Positions 286 to 16,245 of a stretch of DNA of 35,591 nucleotides are shown here, in pieces. The position numbers and the translations under genes were made by a program. Numbering within the stretch: position 1 is the first letter of the stretch; every line of letters begins with the position of its first letter. This DNA comes from Coleofasciculaceae cyanobacterium SM2_1_6. Its GTDB lineage: Bacteria > Cyanobacteriota > Cyanobacteriia > Cyanobacteriales > JAAUUE01. The notes under the pieces were generated by a model. The model ran no database searches, had not been told where the DNA came from, and saw nothing but the letters and a program-made list of their open reading frames with translations. The stretch covers positions 1-35,591 of the forward strand of contig JAAUUE010000005.1 in the NCBI GenBank assembly GCA_012031635.1. Reading direction: 5' to 3'.

Positions 286-578
286 TTAGATAATTAGAGG
301 GTCTTCAAAATTTATGTAGTTGTCGATCCCGTAGGACTCAAGACAGAGTTCCCTTGAAGCTGATAGCTTGTAGAAACGGATGCTGTCTAGTTTGGGGTCG
401 ATGATTTTAATTATTTGGGCTTTCAGGGCTTCGTATTGCGCTTCATTTACCCGGCACTCAAAGACTGAGTATTGAACTCTCTGCCCGTAATTTTGCAGAC
501 TGTGGCAACTTGCCGTAACCTCCGCCTTCCTTCCTTGGTTTCGGTGTTGACATCGTAGGTAACTAAGATATTTTTCAT
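286..578 (-). pseudogene. cas2: CRISPR-associated Cas2, frameshifted as written
   Basis: Cas2 is the small ferredoxin-fold partner of Cas1 in the spacer-integration complex. It is too short for the ORF track. From the ATG at 576-578 it reads MKNILVTYDVNTETKEG...VATVCK, a classic Cas2 start. At the A-run near 492-495 the frame breaks and reaches a stop at 447-449. Restoring one A (four A to five) gives NYGQRVQYSVFECRVNEAQY and an open frame to the TAA at 286-288, for 97 residues in total, the normal Cas2 length. It begins 16 bp after the cas1 stop, as expected for an operon. Either this is a recent loss of function or a homopolymer sequencing error; two other genes in the window carry the same kind of lesion. 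Programmed frameshifting at four A is unlikely. Confidence 0.88.
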
Positions 579-594
579 GGGTTAAGCCCTAATT

Positions 595-1626
595 TTAACG
601 TTGGATAAAAGGCTGGTAGCTGGGAAGGTCGCCCCGTAGATGCCTTGCTAGTAATCGGGCTTGGATGTGGGGAATTAATCCTAGGGGGGTTTTGGTGGCG
701 GTAATGGGGTGGGTAATTTCTTCTTGTTTGCGCTTTTGATAGGCAGTGAGGACAGTTTTGCGAGCGCTGTCGGTCAGATAGATGGCTCCGCCGGGTCTTT
801 CGATGAAGTCGTCGGGTTTAATTTGTTTGCGGTTGATGAGGGTGAGGACAAAGCGATCGGCTAGGGGGGCACGGAGTTCTTCCATAAGGTCGAGGGCGAG
901 GGCTGGTCTACCGGGGCGGAGGGCGTGGAGGAAGCCTATTTGGGGGTCTAAACCGACTCCTTCACAGGCGGCGACACATTCGTTGACAAGTAAACTGTAG
1001 ATGAAGGAAAGGAGGGCGTTGATGGGGTCACGGGGGGGACGGCGGGAGCGCTCGGTGAAGGCAAATGTGTCTCGTTCTGTGCGAATCATGGAGGTGAAGG
1101 CTCCAAAATAGGCTTTGGCGGCGAAACCTTCGGTACCTCTGAGTTTGTCTAGATCGGGGATTGTTTCGGTGGTTTTGATGGCTTCGGCTTGGATTTTGGC
1201 GGCGGTGGTGAGGGCTTGACGATCGCTTTCGCTATTAGCCTCACGAGCCGATCGGCGGAGAACGGAGCGGCTATTTTGAAGTTTGCCAGCGACAAAGTTG
1301 CGGGCGATGAGGAGGGTGGTTTCTGGGTTGTCGAGGGCGGTGTGTTGCGATCGCCTTAGTAAAACATTACCTGTTGTTGGAGCAAATAATCGGGCTTGAA
1401 ATTGCCCCCGGTGGGAGAGCCAAACTAAATCTCGTCCGTCTTCGGCACAGCGATGGATCAGGAAGGGACTACAGAGGACATTGCCAAAAACAACGATACC
1501 GCCTAGGTGATGGAGGGGAATTTGCAAAACTAGCTGTTTTTCGACCTCAACTTTTAGGGTTTCATGATCCAGATGGATGTAGCTGCCTTGGGTTTGGATG
1601 TAGAGGGTGTTGAGTAATACTTTCAT
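595..1626 (-). CDS. cas1: CRISPR-associated endonuclease/integrase Cas1, subtype I-C
   Basis: Cas1 is the catalytic integrase that inserts spacers at the leader end of the array, working as a complex with Cas2 and, in type I-C, Cas4. I start it at MKVLLNTLYIQTQG, residue 32 of the tracked ORF, because this is the typical I-C Cas1 N-terminus and the upstream 31 codons overlap cas4. That gives 343 residues, a normal length. The C-terminal alpha-helical domain carries the metal-binding series: a Glu in SLLVNECVAACEG, the His in GFLHALRPGRP and acidic residues in LDLMEELRAP. The start lies 2 bp beyond the cas4 stop, so the two are translationally linked; cas2 follows after 16 bp. It looks intact. 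Confidence 0.96.
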   Translation of the reverse strand: MKVLLNTLYIQTQGSYIHLDHETLKVEVEKQLVLQIPLHHLGGIVVFGNVLCSPFLIHRCAEDGRDLVWLSHRGQFQARLFAPTTGNVLLRRSQHTALDNPETTLLIARNFVAGKLQNSRSVLRRSAREANSESDRQALTTAAKIQAEAIKTTETIPDLDKLRGTEGFAAKAYFGAFTSMIRTERDTFAFTERSRRPPRDPINALLSFIYSLLVNECVAACEGVGLDPQIGFLHALRPGRPALALDLMEELRAPLADRFVLTLINRKQIKPDDFIERPGGAIYLTDSARKTVLTAYQKRKQEEITHPITATKTPLGLIPHIQARLLARHLRGDLPSYQPFIQR

Positions 1627-1628
1627 AG

Positions 1629-2246
1629 TTACTCCAGAATTTGAAATAGTTGGTTCGCAGCAGCCGATCGCCGAAAGTCTTTGATAGCATAGGGCAGACA
1701 GGCTTCGATCAGGGAGCAATCTGGGCAGCGGGAGTCGGCAACGGGGGGAGGGATGGTGGCAGTTTGAAGTAATTGGCGGACGTTTTTTGTTGTTTCTGCC
1801 ACTAGCGATCGCAACTCTGGGGTAAAGTGTACCTCCCGCCTTCGCTTGGAGCCGTGGTGAAAAATTGCGCCTTTAGGTACGGGGCGATCGAACATTTCTT
1901 CTAGACAAATAGCTTGGGAGCAAAGCTGGACATCATCGGCGGGGCGGGGCTTTTTCGACCCCGATTTGTACTCCACTGGGTAGGGTGTGCCATCTAGACC
2001 AAATTCCACCACATCGGCAATCCCTCTTAATCCTAATTGGTGTGACCACAGAGGTAAGGCTCGCTCGATCCTGATCCCTTCCATGCTCTCGCCGTCAGGA
2101 ATGTTGACTTTTTCATGGACTTGTTGACCCCGGAGGGTATAGATATTTTCATCCCAAACTTGTTCCACATGAATCAAGGCGCACTGGCGGGGACAGTAGA
2201 CGTAGTGCTGGAGGGCACTGAGCATGACGTAATCATCGGTTTCCAT
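1629..2246 (-). CDS. cas4: CRISPR-associated exonuclease Cas4
   Basis: Cas4 is a RecB-like PD-(D/E)XK nuclease with an iron-sulfur cluster that trims prespacers and helps select the correct PAM and orientation. The 205-residue protein has the N-terminal cysteine in YVYCPRQCALIH and the C-terminal cluster CPDCSLIEAC, the four-cysteine arrangement of the family. The nuclease core is visible as IADVVEFG (motif II Asp) and YPVEYKSG (Glu-x-Lys). Length matches type I-C Cas4. It lies directly upstream of cas1 in the same transcription unit, with a 2-bp gap. It is separated from the effector genes by the uma2 gene and two hairpins. Confidence 0.95.
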   Translation of the reverse strand: METDDYVMLSALQHYVYCPRQCALIHVEQVWDENIYTLRGQQVHEKVNIPDGESMEGIRIERALPLWSHQLGLRGIADVVEFGLDGTPYPVEYKSGSKKPRPADDVQLCSQAICLEEMFDRPVPKGAIFHHGSKRRREVHFTPELRSLVAETTKNVRQLLQTATIPPPVADSRCPDCSLIEACLPYAIKDFRRSAAANQLFQILE

Positions 2247-2284: not shown

Positions 2285-2908
2285 TTAGGCATCTGTGGGG
2301 GGAATAACTTTGTTTTCTGGTAATACTGGCTCTGTTATATCTACTTTGTCGTAGATGTCGGCGAGGGCGATCGTACAGGGAATTGTGTCAAATTTAATCT
2401 CTTCTTCTAAGGTGTCGTATTCCTGAAATTCCCATTTTTTTACACCTGTTTTAACATAATGCTGAACAGAATAATGGTGTTGATCAACTAATAGATATTC
2501 CTGAAAGGTGGGGAGCGATCGATAGAAGGTAAATTTTTCAGTTTGATCATATTTCCCAGTTGATTTGGATAATACTTCAATAATTAATGTGGGATTTGTA
2601 ATAGTATCTTTGCGACCTTCTTGTAAAATAAAATCTCCACTTACTACCATCACATCTGGATAGGTATAGCTTCTCTCTTGTGGTATCCACAGGCGTTGAT
2701 CTACTACAAATACTCGATAGGGTTGGCGCTTGAGTGAAAAGTTTAAAGTTCCAGCTATATTTAAAACAATTTGATTATGATTTGGCATTCCTCTAGCCAT
2801 TGGTATTATCTCTCCATGAATGTATTCATTGCGAGTTTCTGAGATGATTTCTAGGGCTAAATATTCCTCTGGGGAATAGACTTGGGTTGTTTGAACTTGA
2901 GCAATCAT
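2285..2908 (-). CDS. Uma2-family (DUF820) PD-(D/E)XK protein inside the cas operon
   Basis: This 207-residue protein is recognised as Uma2 family, a restriction-endonuclease-like fold greatly expanded in cyanobacteria and of unknown function. Visible family features are the N-terminal YSPEEYLALE segment, YIHGEIIPM, the GMPNHNQIVLNIA helix, YPDVMVVSGD (catalytic-type Asp) and TLIIEVLSKST (Glu followed by the strand-end Lys). It lies between cas7 and cas4 on the same strand, 89 bp after cas7 and 38 bp before cas4. Hairpins sit in both flanking gaps. Uma2 genes are scattered across cyanobacterial genomes, so its position may be hitchhiking, but it does split effector from adaptation genes. It looks intact. 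Confidence 0.85.
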   Translation of the reverse strand: MIAQVQTTQVYSPEEYLALEIISETRNEYIHGEIIPMARGMPNHNQIVLNIAGTLNFSLKRQPYRVFVVDQRLWIPQERSYTYPDVMVVSGDFILQEGRKDTITNPTLIIEVLSKSTGKYDQTEKFTFYRSLPTFQEYLLVDQHHYSVQHYVKTGVKKWEFQEYDTLEEEIKFDTIPCTIALADIYDKVDITEPVLPENKVIPPTDA

Positions 2909-4154: not shown

Positions 4155-4562
4155 TTACTCCTGAGTTTGTTTAGATGCGATCGCAGCTTTAGCAGCAGCC
4201 CGATTTTTGGCTCGTTGATGGTAATAGCCCAGAGCAAATAGACCCTGGTTTTGCATGGTCATAGTTTTTGGGAAGCTATCAAGATGAGAGGTAATTTCTT
4301 CTAGGCTTTCTTCTAGGGCATTGCAAGTCCCTGATTGATTTTTTCTTAGTTTAGATAGGTGCGCTCTTGCGCCCCGCAGTAAAGGTGGAAAAGCACTGGC
4401 GGGGTTACTAGAAGCGGCTCCGTAGTAGCGATCGGTCAAAGAAGCATTGATCTTGCCCAAGGCAGCCCGTTGTGTTGCCTCTAGTTCAGCTAATAGGCGA
4501 CCGCAATGATAGGCAGATCGATCTTCAGGGTTAAGTTCAGGATCAGGATTTAGATTTTCCAT
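4155..4562 (-). CDS. Candidate internal Cas11c, translated from within cas8c
   Basis: In type I-C systems the small subunit Cas11 is made from an internal start within cas8c (established for the family). An in-frame ATG at residue 442 of Cas8c, MENLNPDPEL, would give a 135-residue helical protein that begins just before the conserved SAYHCGRLLAELE segment, about where I-C Cas11 starts. No strong Shine-Dalgarno sequence is visible in front of it (the upstream bases read CATAATCTCC), so the exact start is uncertain. Confidence 0.45.
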   Translation of the reverse strand: MENLNPDPELNPEDRSAYHCGRLLAELEATQRAALGKINASLTDRYYGAASSNPASAFPPLLRGARAHLSKLRKNQSGTCNALEESLEEITSHLDSFPKTMTMQNQGLFALGYYHQRAKNRAAAKAAIASKQTQE

Positions 4563-5885
4563 GGAGATTATGGCAAATTGTTCATTTTGAGTAGTAAAAA
4601 TAAGTTTGATTAGAGCTGCTCGATAATAAGTAACATCTTGCTCTACCCGATTGCGCCGTATCAGACGGGCAAGTAGGTCAAGAGGAAGTTTTCCACCATA
4701 AAGAGCAACTCTAGTTAGAGCTATGGTGACGGTCGGGAGCATTTCTTTGGCTGCATCACGATAGGCACTTGAAGCTAGATGGTAGACACTCAGAGGTATG
4801 CCCTGTTCACCATAGGAATCAACGATTTTTTGGGCGGTAAACCATGTGCGTAAATTGCTCTTAACTTCTGGAACAGTCATCTCTAACCAATCCCGGATCA
4901 CAACCCTAGAGCTATTGGCTGTCAGGGCTAAAACGTAGAACTGATTTGCGTCTGTGCCATAGGTTTGCTGCCCTTTCTCAGCAGAATTCAAGAGATTGAT
5001 CACTGCTTGGGGATCGGGTTTGTCGAGAAATTCCCAAGTTTCTGCCACCTCCTCAGAAGGTTCCCTTGTCCAAGCAACGTAGGTGGTAGTGCCGATGTTG
5101 AGCTTGGAGTCGGGGGCAGCAATCAGATGATTTAGGGCTTTGGCAAATTTTTCTGCCGCATCACGGGAGATGGGGGAAGTTAGAGAATTTTTTAGCCCGT
5201 AGGAGGTGAAAGGAGGGGCATTGGCAGATACCAATACCGTGCCTGATGGTTGACCGCCAATCAGTTTTTTAATAAAGACTGGCATTCGATCGACTACAGG
5301 CTTTAGTTCTCCAGTTACCAAGCAGGTCATGATGGGTAAATCCTTTGTCTCTCCATCTCCGCCCCCGGCGGTGTAGTCTGCCCAAAACTCCTGAATACTA
5401 AGTAGTCCAGCTTTCTCGTCTGCCGGAATGATGCCAAGGGCAGAAAAAGTTAGATTGTCACTGGGGTCAAAATCTGGGGGCAACTTATCCCTTTCTGCTT
5501 CTGGATTCCATGACTCTAGAAACTTGACAATTACCTGCACCGATGGCTCTTTGGTAATTTCGGCACATTTTTGGACTAGGGCTTTGAACTGATTATGGCA
5601 GTCTTTGACTCGATCGGGTTTAGATTCCGATCGTCCAATCCCCAACACGTATTCCCCATTATCAGCAAGGAGTTTGGGCTTCACTCCCATGGCTCTGGTA
5701 ATGTGAGGAACCACCATGATTTCACCCCGTTTGTCAACTTTGGTATTGCCGCCTCTGGGGGTAAAACTTTGCAGTGTGCCATCGGGATTAAGATTAATTA
5801 GCCATCGTATTGATGCCGCCATATACATAGCTGGCGGTAGGGTCATTTGCATATCAGCGTATTCTTTTAGTTTGGTCAGAATCAT
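4155..5885 (-). CDS. cas8c: Type I-C Cascade large subunit Cas8c (Csd1)
   Basis: Cas8c is the large subunit that recognises the PAM and helps open the target for Cas3. The 576-residue protein begins MILTKLKEYADMQM, a typical Csd1 start, and has family segments such as DLPIMTCLVTGELKPV, the GTVLVSANAPPFTSYGL stretch and RYYGAASSNPASAFPPLLR near the C-terminus. Its start overlaps the cas5c stop by 4 bp (an ATGA-type junction), so translation is coupled. The last 130 or so residues correspond to the region that in other type I-C systems is also made separately as Cas11. No break was seen. Confidence 0.95.
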   Translation of the reverse strand: MILTKLKEYADMQMTLPPAMYMAASIRWLINLNPDGTLQSFTPRGGNTKVDKRGEIMVVPHITRAMGVKPKLLADNGEYVLGIGRSESKPDRVKDCHNQFKALVQKCAEITKEPSVQVIVKFLESWNPEAERDKLPPDFDPSDNLTFSALGIIPADEKAGLLSIQEFWADYTAGGGDGETKDLPIMTCLVTGELKPVVDRMPVFIKKLIGGQPSGTVLVSANAPPFTSYGLKNSLTSPISRDAAEKFAKALNHLIAAPDSKLNIGTTTYVAWTREPSEEVAETWEFLDKPDPQAVINLLNSAEKGQQTYGTDANQFYVLALTANSSRVVIRDWLEMTVPEVKSNLRTWFTAQKIVDSYGEQGIPLSVYHLASSAYRDAAKEMLPTVTIALTRVALYGGKLPLDLLARLIRRNRVEQDVTYYRAALIKLIFTTQNEQFAIISMENLNPDPELNPEDRSAYHCGRLLAELEATQRAALGKINASLTDRYYGAASSNPASAFPPLLRGARAHLSKLRKNQSGTCNALEESLEEITSHLDSFPKTMTMQNQGLFALGYYHQRAKNRAAAKAAIASKQTQE

Positions 5886-6571
5886 GATGGGGGAATCCTC
5901 AAAATGCCTTGGTTTAGTCTGGCTCGAAAGAACTTGGGCTGGGCTTTGCCTTTGACAACTTTTGCCCCAGTAGTATCGTGGCTCAAATAGGTAAGAGTTC
6001 CATCTGTGGTTTCAGTGAACTCCATATCTAGGAGCATTAATCCCAGTTCATCGGTGCGATCGATGGGAACGTCCTCTTCTTCAGGCGGTTCAAAAAAAGC
6101 ACTAAATTCCCTTGTTCCTAGATAGGGTTGATGGTGGCATTGCCCCCTAGCCACCCGGCGGCGAAACTGGTCTCGATATTTAGCCGGAGTTGCATCGGCG
6201 TGGGGTTTGAGTTGAATCTGGGCTTTGATAATGTAGGCTACATCTCGTAAACATAGGGTATGGCGTTGGGTGCGGTCGGCATCAGCGTAATAATGAAAGT
6301 CGGGGTCTCTAGCCGAGCGATCGCTTTGCCAACTACTCACTTCATTGCGTAAAATCGAAAATCGCTTAATTGGTTTCAACACATGGATTTCCTGCACCTG
6401 CCAAGTAAACTCTGGCTTCCAAAAAATTGCCTCTAGTACACCTCTAGCTGCACTAGGGGTCATAACTTCATAGCTAACCCGCTCCACCCCAAACTCAGGA
6501 CGAGTAAAATTAGCAAAATCACTCCATACCTTTACACTCAAAGGTACACTTAAGGATAAATCATTAGTCAT
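5882..6571 (-). CDS. cas5: Type I-C Cas5c (Cas5d), pre-crRNA endoribonuclease
   Basis: In type I-C, which lacks Cas6, Cas5c cuts the pre-crRNA and then stays bound to the 5' handle in Cascade. The 229-residue protein shows the RAMP N-terminus LSVKVWSDFANFTRPEF, the YEVMTPSAARGVLEAIFWKP helix that holds the conserved Tyr used in cleavage, and the C-terminal PYLGTREFSAFF motif of Cas5d. Candidate basic catalytic residues lie in the KPHADATPAKYRDQFRRR segment, though I cannot assign them exactly. A good Shine-Dalgarno, AAGGA, sits 7 nt before the ATG. The 81-bp gap upstream contains a perfect TATAAT. Its stop overlaps the cas8c start. Confidence 0.94.
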   Translation of the reverse strand: MTNDLSLSVPLSVKVWSDFANFTRPEFGVERVSYEVMTPSAARGVLEAIFWKPEFTWQVQEIHVLKPIKRFSILRNEVSSWQSDRSARDPDFHYYADADRTQRHTLCLRDVAYIIKAQIQLKPHADATPAKYRDQFRRRVARGQCHHQPYLGTREFSAFFEPPEEEDVPIDRTDELGLMLLDMEFTETTDGTLTYLSHDTTGAKVVKGKAQPKFFRARLNQGILRIPPS

Positions 6572-6652: not shown

Positions 6653-7264
6653 CTAGGACAGTAAAGCAGCTAAAAGAATCCGCATTACTGCTTCGATGTC
6701 TTCGGTGACTCGATAGAGATTGAGAACTTGGAGAATATGTTTTTGCGATCGCTGTAGAACCCCAAACTGCCAAATATTCCCCGTAGTCACCGCCCCCAAA
6801 AGTTCCGGCTGATCAGAATCTGTCCACTGATCTAGGGCAATCAACTCTACTGCTAGTTGACCAAATCCTCGGCTCAAATCAGCTTGTTTGGCTTCAATAA
6901 TCACCACTCCACTATTTGTTGCTAGATAATAATCCAGAGAGCCTTGCAGTTGATTGCTTAATTTGAGGTTATATTCAATCCGCACATGGGCATGACTGTA
7001 ATAGATTAGGTCAGCCACGATCGGGGCAATCATAAATTCTCGGCGAGTTGTTTCATTTTCTGAGTCAATGTACGGCAAAACTTCTTCAATACGTTGCTGG
7101 AGATTTGCCAAGCGATCGAGTTTTCCGGCATATTCTGGCAGTTTGAGCATTTGTTTACTCAGGGTATAGCCAAATTCTGTAACCAATTCGCTAGGAATAA
7201 TGCCTAGGTCAAAATAATTACTAAAAGTATAGGAACGATTTGGATCTAGGGTTGATTTAGTCAT
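6653..7264 (-). CDS. PD-(D/E)XK nuclease-fold protein between cas3 and cas5c, function unknown
   Basis: The protein is not a Cas family member I recognise. Counting from the ATG at 7264 it has 203 residues; an in-frame ATG at 7285 would overlap the cas3 stop. It shows a full PD-(D/E)XK signature: Glu76 in TRREFMIAP, Asp111 in QGSLDYYL, Glu124 and Lys126 in VVIIEAKQ, and Gln136 in FGQLAVELIAL. The residues needed for metal-dependent nuclease activity are therefore all there. The N-terminal 60 residues are helical. It touches cas3 and precedes cas5c by 81 bp, all on one strand, so it is co-transcribed with cas3. Similar unlinked proteins are common in cyanobacteria, so a CRISPR role is only an inference. 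Confidence 0.8.
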   Translation of the reverse strand: MTKSTLDPNRSYTFSNYFDLGIIPSELVTEFGYTLSKQMLKLPEYAGKLDRLANLQQRIEEVLPYIDSENETTRREFMIAPIVADLIYYSHAHVRIEYNLKLSNQLQGSLDYYLATNSGVVIIEAKQADLSRGFGQLAVELIALDQWTDSDQPELLGAVTTGNIWQFGVLQRSQKHILQVLNLYRVTEDIEAVMRILLAALLS

Positions 7265-7277
7265 AGGTCTCAATTTC

Positions 7278-9533
7278 TCAAACAATTAAATCCGCAGGGT
7301 CAAAAATAATTGCTTTGCCTCCCATCATAATCCCTCGTACTAGATGATCATAATTACCATCTTGCCAAACCCATAAACCGGGGGCAATTTCTCGCCGTAG
7401 GTCTTCGGTTCGTGAAAACTCATAGTTGCGGAGATTGACAAGGTAGGGTTGGAGCGATCGCCAGTCCCCAGAAAGCAAACCCCGTCTTTCAATCAGGCGC
7501 AATAAACCACGCACTCGATCGTCATGCTGAATTACAACTGGGGTGGTGTCATCTTGAATAAACTTAAACTTTTTGGAAACCTCAGGGTAATTTAGTTTTT
7601 TCCGTAACCCTTGGATATCACATTTATCCGTGTTCACATTTTCGTAGAGTTTGTGGAAGTATTCTTCAAAGATTTCTGGACTATCAAGATCAAGGTCTGG
7701 AGATTTCAATAAATCTTTGGTGATAGAAATTGCAGTTTCATACATTCCCTTGGGAGTGCTGCCTTCCGCCGGATCAAAGATCACCACCCGTCCTTTGTTT
7801 TCTCGCTTACCTTCTCGGTTGCAACGTCCGGCGGCTTGGACAATCCGATCGAGGGGAGCGATCGCTCGATATACCACAGGGAAGTCTAGATCAACTCCAG
7901 CTTCCACCACTTGAGTTGAAACTAAGATGCAGGGCTGAGGATTTTTGGGATTGAGGCGATCGTGAATTTTTTGCAAAACTTCCTGTCGATGCTTGCCACA
8001 CAACAGAGTCGAAAGATGAAATACATGTTCCGCACCTCCTAGCCGATCTAAAACTGCTAGGGCATCTTTGCGAGTATTCAAGATTACCAAGGCTTGATCC
8101 TGTTGCTGAATATCTTGGGCTAACCGTTCCCAATTCCATGGGTCTTCAGGAATGAGGTAAGTTACTCTACTTAAGCTTACAAAATACTCCCGTGCTTGCT
8201 GTGGGGGAATAATATCCTGAACTGAACCCGGAGCAAATCCTTCTAGGTAGCGACTTTGCCCTTCTAGGGCTGGTTGGGTAGCAGTACAGAGAACGATCGT
8301 CACCCGATAGCGATCGACCAGTTCTTGCAACACACTCAAGATAGGTTTCAGCAAAAGTAATGGCAGAGTTTGCACTTCATCCAAAATGATCACACTGCCA
8401 ACAATATTATGCAACTTGCGGCAACGGCTGGGACGGTTGGCAAACAAGCTCTCGAATAGCTGTACTGTTGTCGTCACAATCAGGGGCGCATCCCAATTTT
8501 GGGTTGCCAAACGAGCTTGAGCCATCTCCTGCCGGGCATCTTCATCATCAGGCTCTTTTGAGGCACTATGATGTTCTAAAACTGCTTCTTGACCAAAAAT
8601 ATCTCGATAAACTCCAACGGTCTGATCAATAATGCTGGTGTAGGGAACTGCTACGATTACTCGATCGAGGTGATGATCGATCGCATGACGTAGGGAAAAA
8701 GCCAACCCACTCAGGGTTTTGCCCCCACCAGTCGGCACTGCTAACCGAAAAACCCCCGGTGATAGTAGGGCGGCATCTACACAAGCTCGATAAACATCGG
8801 CTCTAATTTGATTTACAGGTGTAGTTTCAGCATTATCAATTACTTCATTTTGTGTCTTTTGCAACAAGTCCCATAGTTGGGCGATCGTGATATTAGCACC
8901 CCGTAATGCAGCCTTTTCTGGACTAAAGTGCGCCTCCGTATCTAGATGATCAGCATCAATCAAACAAGAAAAAAGTATCCGAGTAAAAAACTCATAGCGA
9001 TAAGTATCTTTCTCCACTCCTGACCTTAGTTGTCGCAGATCAATCCCAAATCCTGACATTAGCTGCCGGAGGTTAATTTCAGTTTGTAGCTGACACAAAC
9101 CTTCTGGGGCTTGGCGTAATACCTCCTGATAAGATTCATCAAAGGCTGGTTCTTCTTGCAATTTGACTATTTCACTTTTCATGTGTGAATTCTCAGGCAG
9201 ACCACCATGATGCCCGTATATGATCGGAGCCAAAGGCTGTAACTTTTCCCAAGCCAAACGTGCTCCTTGAACGGCGTGGGGAATTTTAGGATGGGGAGCT
9301 TTTTTACCTACTTTAGAAGCAATGTGACATAATTCTAAATACCTCTGAAACTCTGGATTGTATTTGCCTAAATCGTGCCAGAGTCCGGCATAGTAACCAA
9401 GTTCACCAGCCCCAAATTTGTCAGCATAAAACCTAGCTTTTTGGGCAACACAATCTAAATGTTCTTTTAATCCATGCCATTTATCAGAATCTTTTGCTGG
9501 TGTATGAGCTGCTGGCTGCTTTGATTCAGACAT
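7278..9533 (-). CDS. cas3: CRISPR-associated helicase/nuclease Cas3
   Basis: Cas3 is recruited by Cascade to unwind and degrade target DNA. The 751-residue protein has both parts fused. The N-terminal HD nuclease shows LWHDLGK (His53-Asp54), GHHGG (about 107-111) and CLIDADHLD. The SF2 helicase shows Walker A PTGGGKT (about 267-273), ILDEVQTLP (motif II, about 385), and STQVVEAGVDLDFPVVYR followed by QAAGRCNREG (motif VI). All catalytic motifs are intact. It lies at the head of the cas operon, 30 bp after the LCP gene on the same strand, so the usual intergenic cas promoter is missing or lies within or upstream of the LCP gene. Confidence 0.97.
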   Translation of the reverse strand: MSESKQPAAHTPAKDSDKWHGLKEHLDCVAQKARFYADKFGAGELGYYAGLWHDLGKYNPEFQRYLELCHIASKVGKKAPHPKIPHAVQGARLAWEKLQPLAPIIYGHHGGLPENSHMKSEIVKLQEEPAFDESYQEVLRQAPEGLCQLQTEINLRQLMSGFGIDLRQLRSGVEKDTYRYEFFTRILFSCLIDADHLDTEAHFSPEKAALRGANITIAQLWDLLQKTQNEVIDNAETTPVNQIRADVYRACVDAALLSPGVFRLAVPTGGGKTLSGLAFSLRHAIDHHLDRVIVAVPYTSIIDQTVGVYRDIFGQEAVLEHHSASKEPDDEDARQEMAQARLATQNWDAPLIVTTTVQLFESLFANRPSRCRKLHNIVGSVIILDEVQTLPLLLLKPILSVLQELVDRYRVTIVLCTATQPALEGQSRYLEGFAPGSVQDIIPPQQAREYFVSLSRVTYLIPEDPWNWERLAQDIQQQDQALVILNTRKDALAVLDRLGGAEHVFHLSTLLCGKHRQEVLQKIHDRLNPKNPQPCILVSTQVVEAGVDLDFPVVYRAIAPLDRIVQAAGRCNREGKRENKGRVVIFDPAEGSTPKGMYETAISITKDLLKSPDLDLDSPEIFEEYFHKLYENVNTDKCDIQGLRKKLNYPEVSKKFKFIQDDTTPVVIQHDDRVRGLLRLIERRGLLSGDWRSLQPYLVNLRNYEFSRTEDLRREIAPGLWVWQDGNYDHLVRGIMMGGKAIIFDPADLIV

Positions 9534-13484: not shown

Positions 13485-16090
13485 TTATTTACTAGAAGTA
13501 GCGAGAGCTTTGAACTCCTCAATACTGGGTTCGTCGCCCTTGGCAATTACTCTTCCTTCATCTTCAAAACCAGCAATCTCGTTAAAGTTGAGATAACGAT
13601 AGAGTTCCGCAGCGAGGGGATTGATTTTATCTTGGACTACTTTTAGATATTCCTCACGGGTTGGCATTTTCCCCAACAAGGCACAGACGGCAGCAAGTTC
13701 GGCAGAACCAAGATAGACCTGAGCACCTTTGCCCATGCGGTTATTGAAATTGCGGGTCGAGGTCGAAAACACTGTGGTATTATCTTCTACCCGGGCTTGG
13801 TTGCCCATACAGAGAGAGCAACCCGGCATTTCTAACCGAGCGCCCGTCTTTTGGAAAATTTCGTAATAACCCTCAGATTTCAGCATTGACTCATCCATGC
13901 GGGTGGGGGGAGCAACCCAGAGCCGAGCTTTGGCAACGCCTTCCCCTTCGATCGCCTTGGCTGCTGCCCGGTAGTGACCAATATTTGTCATGCAGGAACC
14001 GATAAAGACTTCGTGGATGCGATCGCCGACGCACTCAGACAGGGTTTTGATATTGTCAGGATCGTTGGGTGCTGCCACCAGGGGTTCGGTGATCTGGTTG
14101 AGGTCAATCTCGATAATCTCGGCGTACTCCGCATCCGCATCTGCTTCCATTAGCACCGGGTTGGCGAGCCATTCCTCCATTTTGGCAATCCGTCTGGTCA
14201 TGGTGCGGGCCTCGGTGTAACCACGGGCGATCATGTTTTTCAGGAGAGAGATGTTCGATCGCAGATACTCGGCTACAGTTTCGGGACTGAGTTTGATGGT
14301 GCAACCAGAACAGGATCGCTCTGCCGTCGCATCGGTGAGTTCAAAGGCTTGCTCTAGTTTTAGATCGGGCAGTCCTTCAATTTCCATGATTTTCCCAGAG
14401 AAGATATTTTTCTTGTTTTGCTTCTCAATGGTTAACAAACCCTTCTGGATTGCTACGTAGGGAATGGCATTCACCACATCCCGGAGGGTAATCCCCGGCT
14501 GCATTTCCCCCTTAAATCGGACTAACACCGATTCTGGCATATCCAAGGGCATCACCCCCAGCGCCGCCGCAAAGGCTACCAGCCCAGAACCCGCCGGAAA
14601 GGAAATCCCCAAAGGAAAACGGGTATGGGAATCCCCACCAGTCCCCACGGTATCGGGCAGCAGCATCCGGTTTAGCCAAGAATGAATAATCCCATCTGCC
14701 GGACGCAACGCCACGCCCCCACGGGTGGCAAAGAAATCTGGTAGTTCCTTGTGAGTTTGGATATCTGTGGGTTTGGGGTAAGCGGCAGTGTGGCAGAAAC
14801 TTTGCATGACTAGATCCGCAGAGAAGCCGAGGCAGGCTAGTTCCTTCAATTCATCACGGGTCATGGGGCCAGTGGTATCTTGGGAGCCAACGGTGGTCAT
14901 GATGGGTTCGCAGGAAGTGCCGGGACGAACACCGGGTAGTCCACAGGCTTTGCCGACCATTTTCTGGGCGAGGGTGTAGCCTTTGCCCGTATCCACGGGG
15001 GGTGTGGGACGGGTGAAGAGGGGACTGGGAGATAAACCAAGGGCTTGACGGGTTTTATCGGTGAGGCTGCGCCCGATGAGGAGGGGAATTCTGCCCCCCG
15101 CCCGGACTTCATCGAGGATTGTCTCTGGTTTGAGGGTGAAGGTGGAAATCACTGCGCCGCTTTCATTGGTAATTTCGCCCTTGTAGGGATGGATCGTAAT
15201 CACCATGCCAGTTTCTAGCCCGGTGGCATCACACTCGATCGGTAAGGCTCCCGAATCTTCGGCGGTGTTGAAAAAGATGGGGGCGATCGCCCGCCGAGAA
15301 TATAGCCGCCCGATCGCTTATTGGGTACGTAGGGAATATCGTTACCAATGTGCCACAGCACCGAGTTAATGGCAGACTTCCGGGAGGAACCAGTCCCCAC
15401 CACATCCCCCACATAGGCTACGGGATAGCCTTTTTGCTTCAGTTTGGCAATAGTCTGGATGCTGCCGGGTTGCTTGCTCTCCAGCATCACGAGGGCATGG
15501 AGGGGAATATCGGGGCGAGTGGTGGCATGGGGCGCTGGGGAGAGGTCATCGGTGTTGGTTTCGCCGGGAACCTTAAATACAGTGACGGTAACTGCTTCCG
15601 GTAGTTTGGGGCGACTCACGAGCCATTCGGCATTTGCCCAAGAATCCACCACCTGTTTGGCATAGGGGTTCTTTGCGGAGAGGGTCAAAATATCATGGAA
15701 GGCATCAAATACTAACATGGTCTTGCTCAGGGCAGCAGCAGCGGTGGAAGCGATCGCTGGTTCCCGGACTTGCAACAGACTAATTAAAGACTGGACATTA
15801 TATCCGCCCAGCATGGTTCCCAAGAGATGTACCGCCGCTTCGGGAGTAATCAAGGGGCAGTTAGTTTCTCCCTTGGCAACGGCAGTGAGAAATCCTGCTT
15901 TGACGTAGGCTGCCTGATCTACTCCGGGGGGGACTCGATCGCGGAGCATCTCAATTAAAGTTTCGGCTTCGTCCGCAGGCGGATTTTTGAGGAGTTCGCA
16001 TAGCTCGGCTACCTGCTCTGCATTCAAAGGAAGGGGAGGAATTCCCAAGGCTGCCCGTTCTTGGACATGGTGGCGATAGGTTTCTAGCAT
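13485..16090 (-). pseudogene. acnB: Aconitate hydratase B, frameshifted as written
   Basis: AcnB interconverts citrate and isocitrate in the TCA cycle using a 4Fe-4S cluster. The gene is split in the ORF track into 15215-16231 (N-terminal) and 13485-15206 (C-terminal). The first half runs in frame to [10 protein letters not shown], then shifts; in the next frame it continues [19 protein letters not shown] and joins [11 protein letters not shown]. Adding one base to the CCC run at 15290-15292 (inside a HIP1 site) restores 868 residues, the usual AcnB size. The start is MLETYRHHVQE (16090); upstream codons of the tracked ORF do not match the family. Cluster ligands are seen in [10 protein letters not shown] and GCSLCMGNQ. 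Loss of aconitase would be surprising, so a sequencing error is quite likely. Confidence 0.93.
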
Positions 16091-16245
16091 AATTATTTGG
16101 TTTTTCTTCTTCTCAAGATCAGGATGATTATAAACTACCTGAATTATCTGATCTTTATTACTCTTTACTACCATTTTGAGCGATCGTCCTTGACTTTGCC
16201 AGAACCTGCTGAGGATTATTGACCAAATCATTACCCGAACTATCT

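Follow-up and report, generated by a model that had tools for sequence, protein, structure and literature searches.

Why should a type I-C CRISPR-Cas operon carry, between cas3 and cas5c, the gene for a small stand-alone nuclease, and does that gene contribute to immunity or has it simply come to rest there? For type III CRISPR systems, accessory nucleases have been studied extensively; for type I they have, to our knowledge, received little attention. Those of type III are touched on in PMC12669027, and Uma2 proteins are listed as accessory in the type III-B operons of Microcystis (PMC11855584); a search of the literature on the role of the family considered here found no paper describing its function. 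The operon lies in a window of 35,591 nucleotides (the whole stretch of DNA that was analysed) from Coleofasciculaceae cyanobacterium SM2_1_6.

The operon and its predicted nuclease

Working along the operon from cas3, the gene order is cas3–nuclease–cas5c–cas8c–cas7c–(Uma2)–cas4–cas1, all co-directional, followed by a broken cas2 and a truncated CRISPR array (Table 1). The system is a genuine I-C, with cas3, cas5c, cas8c, cas7c, cas4 and cas1 each matching their respective models. A first-pass annotation of this DNA had described a complete PD-(D/E)XK protein lying between cas3 and cas5c on the operon strand, which is what the open reading frame provides; its further statement that the gene ‘touches’ the cas3 stop holds for adjacency but slightly overstates the contact, as 13 bp separate the cas3 stop (position 7278) from the nuclease ATG (7264). 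At the other end, 81 bp lie between the nuclease stop (6653) and the start of cas5c (6571); a search for terminator-like sites on the minus strand turned up none separating the nuclease from cas3 or from cas5.

Table 1. Features of the type I-C operon in the window, from cas3 to the contig end
Feature	Position	Strand	Basis and remarks
cas3 (I-C), 751 aa	7278..9533	minus	directly upstream of nuclease; profile match
stand-alone PD-(D/E)XK nuclease (P0001), 203 aa	6653..7264	minus	ORF, profile, alignment, AlphaFold2 model
cas5c	5882..6571	minus	directly downstream of nuclease; profile match
cas8c/csd1	4155..5885	minus	profile match
cas7c/csd2, insert of ~100 aa	2998..4149	minus	profile match
Uma2 nuclease, the other non-Cas gene inserted in the operon (cas7–cas4 junction)	2285..2908	minus
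cas4	1629..2246	minus	profile match
cas1 (I-C type)	595..1626	minus	ORF opens at 1719, likely ATG at 1626
cas2, gene broken by frame shift near 465–480	310..578	minus
CRISPR array end, two repeat copies 77 nt apart, array cut by contig end	1..115	minus

Two features of the surrounding sequence deserve mention. The frame break in cas2 represents either real decay or a contig error; acnB, elsewhere in the window (13485–16231, minus strand), is interrupted at about 15206–15215, giving two ORFs, which suggests frame errors in the contig. Separately, the 383 aa Cas7c is matched by its profile in two stretches, and its length is nearly equal in the cyanobacterial I-C relatives L071, L072 and L074.

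In an alignment of 15 homologues, residues E76, D111, E124, K126 and Q136 are invariant—the same set (Glu76, Asp111, Glu124-x-Lys126 and Gln136) that had been picked out from the window sequence alone—and lie within a conserved surrounding motif, L-x-G-x-x-D-Y ... I-E-A-K-x-A-D ... G-F-x-Q-L. An AlphaFold2 model of the window protein is confident (mean pLDDT 92.7, pTM 0.90) and comprises a single domain, in which an alpha/beta restriction-endonuclease-like core presents the motif on three strands (amino acids 93–101, 107–115 and 120–125) and a helix (130–147). Both the catalytic residue set and the core fold are those of the PD-(D/E)XK superfamily. The protein is thus probably a small DNA-cutting enzyme, putatively active and with DNA as its likely substrate, and its predicted activity is metal-dependent phosphodiester cleavage.

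Placing the protein alongside known nucleases is less straightforward. Neither Pfam nor NCBIfam profiles match it, no sequence-based link to a solved structure was found, and a Foldseek search of the PDB with the model returned no match at an E-value of 0.001 or better; the best relevant hit was the type IIG enzyme DrdV (E 0.0046), with weaker similarity to Cas4, BpuSI and lambda exonuclease. The family shows a weak match to the HSDR_N_2 profile of type I restriction enzymes (0.0028), and one relative is annotated as ‘HsdR N-terminal domain-containing’; unlike type I or type IIG (DrdV, BpuSI) enzymes, the nuclease has no helicase, methyltransferase or specificity domain. Like Cas4 it is a PD-(D/E)XK nuclease of the same operons, but it has no conserved Fe-S cysteines in the 15-sequence alignment and occurs alongside a normal Cas4; the Cas4 profile fails to match the window protein and is marginal for one of 15 members (6.5e-4).

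One existing resource does recognise the family. The PADLOC-DB model PDLC01472 (‘PD_DExK’; CAS-I to CAS-VI, associated) hits the window protein at 3.5e-26, as well as each of the 15 family members checked, so that earlier curators had already marked such proteins as CRISPR-associated. This model names no subtype, position or function and also matches family members outside CRISPR loci; what we add to it is the clade structure, the distribution across I-B, I-D and I-C, and the link to cas3/cas10d.

The homologues are under purifying selection, with dN/dS values of about 0.05–0.29, which argues that the window gene is not a chance ORF. As copies outside CRISPR loci are constrained (0.05–0.29) similarly to those within them (0.06–0.13), selection is no proof of a CRISPR role, and we discarded dN/dS as an argument for one.

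An isolated I-C copy and a CRISPR-linked clade

The window represents an isolated I-C capture. Csd1 occurs in only 13 of the 386 genomes of our phylum sample, and the nuclease is absent from the vicinity of the cas genes in all 12 other Csd1 (I-C) loci; standard I-C operons, as the first-pass annotation had said, carry no such gene. Its presence in related I-C operons, which would have spoken for a conserved association, was not borne out: the two closest I-C loci (G070 and G060, with Cas proteins 54–74% identical) have cas3–cas5 junctions of 148 bp and 15 bp, respectively, and no nuclease. A search of the one available same-genus genome found no I-C cas8c. We therefore rejected the idea of a conserved I-C association; the nuclease is not a core I-C Cas gene, the window being its sole I-C case. 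Unlike the PD-(D/E)XK nuclease, the Uma2 insertion between cas7 and cas4 does recur in I-C, at L072 (11727–12335) and L079 (9301–9894), with 65–66% identity to the window gene.

The family as a whole is mainly cyanobacterial and multi-copy. At a cut-off of E 1e-15 it is present in 66 of the 386 genomes, four copies being found in the window's own genome, and most of its more than 150 copies are solitary in unrelated, mostly housekeeping neighbourhoods; the earlier description of a family common in cyanobacteria is upheld. No viral homologues were found in IMG/VR contigs (searched with the window protein) or in INPHARED phages, and a phage origin was rejected on these grounds.

Such scatter is what would be expected of a proliferating cyanobacterial single-gene nuclease, akin to Uma2/COG4636, that had inserted between cas3 and cas5c by chance and plays no immune role; we regard this as a serious possibility, though on balance an unlikely one. 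The cyanobacterial COG4636 (Uma2/DUF820) nucleases have been described as selfish genes with near-random insertion (PMC551604), and resemble the window family in their PD-(D/E)XK fold, their size of ~200 aa and their multiplication as single genes scattered through freshwater cyanobacteria. The window operon already holds one gene of this kind, in Uma2, and the other I-C loci do without the nuclease. The resemblance has its limits: the Uma2 profile PF05685 matches neither the window protein nor 14 relatives, and the window family differs in having the classical D...E-x-K plus Q and in having one clade concentrated in CRISPR operons.

This concentration speaks against chance. Cas1, Csc3 (I-D), Cas3 HD and Csd1 (I-C) were mapped as cas markers in the same 386 genomes; 12 of the 150 family copies listed lie within 5.1 kb of a marker, with no others within 20 kb, whereas the share of the genome lying that close to a marker would predict 0.80 (nominal Poisson P of roughly 1e-8 to 1e-10). 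Proximity to CRISPR loci is therefore 12–15 times over chance for the whole family, and the check on copy number proposed in the first-pass annotation comes out in favour of enrichment. A second sample, of 245 genomes of the order, yielded 60 loci in new genomes, picked by similarity rank rather than context, of which 15 lie inside cas operons; as choice by similarity rank favours relatives of the query, this confirms the CRISPR link at the level of the clade, not of the family at large. Adding two plasmid loci brings the CRISPR loci besides the window to 27: 20 I-D, 5 I-B and 2 remnants. Even in these subtypes the nuclease is optional: in the phylum sample, 6 of the 60 Csc3-bearing genomes carry it, as do 2 of the 5 that have a Cas8b of this I-B kind.

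A family tree of 154 rows resolves into two sister clades, of 73 and 81 rows. All CRISPR-associated copies fall in the former (34/73, SH-aLRT 99, versus 0/81; Fisher 5e-14, a descriptive value since the rows are related and P-values overstate their independence). Random insertion predicts equal rates in the two clades; the contrast indicates that the family is not simply landing in CRISPR loci at random, and rejects chance insertion in its simple, family-wide form. About half of the CRISPR-bearing clade nonetheless sits outside CRISPR loci, and the CRISPR/non-CRISPR labels need about 13 changes on the tree, only 6 of which are forced by well-supported branches.

The window copy itself belongs to a subclade of 12 rows, the remaining 11 of which lie outside CRISPR loci, and may be a lone passenger. 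Its closest relatives (59–66% identity) occupy housekeeping neighbourhoods and, once, a position beside a DISARM gene: the 66%-identical relative at L027 (14983–15597) abuts drmD on the conjugative A. variabilis plasmid C. A quick tree sets the window copy apart from the CRISPR-rich subclade, but an AU test does not reject joining the two (p 0.43). The I-C case is a singleton, yet one from a clade that is linked to CRISPR, mainly through I-D and I-B.

Position and retention in I-D and I-B operons

Three arrangements recur: cas10d–nuclease–cas7d, seen in I-D; cas3 (or cas3′)–nuclease–cas6, seen in I-B and in I-D loci ending in cas3′; and cas5d–nuclease–cas6, confined to a few I-D loci. The slot directly 3′ of cas3, cas3′ or cas10d holds a copy in 22 of 25 non-remnant loci, with tight coupling to the preceding gene in several (overlaps of 1–4 bp or gaps of 3–9 bp); the window copy, 13 bp after cas3, occupies the same slot. 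Recurrence of this kind again sits poorly with chance insertion. In I-D loci that have no nuclease, the spacing between cas10d and cas7d is mostly <200 bp. One same-genus pair captures the difference at a single junction: with cas10d 97% identical, the nuclease is present in G002, where its start codon and the stop of cas10d share bases, and absent from G207. Optional presence, together with close strains that differ at one junction, makes the role of the gene directly testable, be it in cyanobacteria or after transfer to a heterologous host. We also consider the slot after cas3/cas10d a recruitment hot spot, which could be mined for more accessory genes.

Other genes gather in neighbouring positions. 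In nuclease-less I-D loci (L142–L157, L065, L066) two kinds of gene recur between cas3′ and cas10d: YhcG/DUF1016 nuclease genes, in 12 of 40 loci, and HepT-like genes, in 14 of 40, the latter often with an 8-bp overlap with the cas10d start.

Copies of the nuclease are retained across subtypes. Those of the I-B operon of G153 and of two kinds of I-D operon (G022; G087 and G103) are 91–94% identical, with cas6 84–95% and cas1 79–93% identical between the same loci; similarly, in genus g41 a tandem pair of nuclease genes followed by cas6–cas4–cas1–cas2 is common to the I-B locus of G213 (L068) and the I-D loci of G436 and G447 (L249, L256). Near-identical copies beside I-B and I-D machinery, a case of subtype INDEPENDENCE, indicate that the nuclease stays while the interference genes change. 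The CRISPR copies keep their active site and persist where interference modules differ, a further point against an insertion of no consequence. As the same nuclease is found beside I-B, I-D and, in the window, I-C machinery, dependence on a subtype-specific Cascade surface is unlikely; a common partner (the Cas3 helicase or the Cas4–Cas1–Cas2 module), plain co-expression, or action on DNA alone are more likely.

Alternation of I-B and I-D interference modules beside a conserved cas6–cas4–cas1–cas2 is itself seen elsewhere in our data (L068 versus L249/L256; L061 versus L062/L065/L066), and occurs inside one genus or family.

The retention of the nuclease with cas6–cas4–cas1–cas2 when interference genes differ would also suit a factor that makes or trims prespacers with Cas4–Cas1–Cas2 and takes no part in target destruction. 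The adaptation module is the common part of the I-B, I-D and I-C loci, and nuclease identity tracks cas1 identity (Spearman 0.75 over 36 pairs, which are related and non-independent). Nevertheless, Cas4, itself a PD-(D/E)XK nuclease, is already encoded in nearly all of these operons, the window included; the gene most often sits within the interference module, following cas10d or cas3; and one nuclease-bearing locus, L070, has no adaptation genes in the 20 kb examined. We consequently think a purely adaptive function rather doubtful. The near-universal presence of cas4, in the window as elsewhere, also led us to reject the nuclease as a replacement for Cas4.

A proposed accessory role in interference

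Taking position, clade enrichment and retention together, we favour, with moderate confidence, a clade that provides an optional accessory DNA nuclease, repeatedly recruited by cyanobacterial type I CRISPR-Cas operons and acting with the interference machinery. The gene product would be a single-domain, metal-dependent PD-(D/E)XK DNA nuclease, probably co-expressed with the interference nuclease/helicase given its usual place directly after cas3, cas3′ or cas10d. It would cut DNA unwound or nicked by Cas3 or Cas10d, so aiding destruction of the invader, and the resulting fragments might be captured as spacers by Cas4–Cas1–Cas2. The step at which it acts is something we infer, as is the supposition that the I-C copy in the window would work like its I-D and I-B cousins. 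A further, more tentative proposal is of a type I accessory nuclease that is independent of subtype, holds the slot after cas3/cas10d, survives exchange of the interference module and performs a DNA-processing step linking interference to spacer capture. Either way, a single clade of nucleases is linked with several subtypes of type I and is nonetheless optional.

Of the three functions raised in the first-pass annotation—a second DNA-degrading activity next to Cas3, processing of prespacers, or processing of crRNA—the last now appears the least likely, because cas6 is present in nearly all of the I-D and I-B loci and Cas5c is present in I-C.

A separate defence or toxin-like nuclease, restrained by the CRISPR operon and punishing loss or inhibition of the system, seems improbable: whilst the same operons gather conflict genes (YhcG/DUF1016, HepT-like and Uma2) and one relative abuts a DISARM gene, no recurrent antitoxin-like partner adjoins the nuclease, which also persists alone in housekeeping loci with no apparent partner.

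Finally, a second and distant PD_DExK family, 26–30% identical to the window protein, is found in tandem with the nuclease at L064 (9049–9669), L068 (10684–11310), L256 and L206; in three of these four loci, the tandem lies inside a cas operon.
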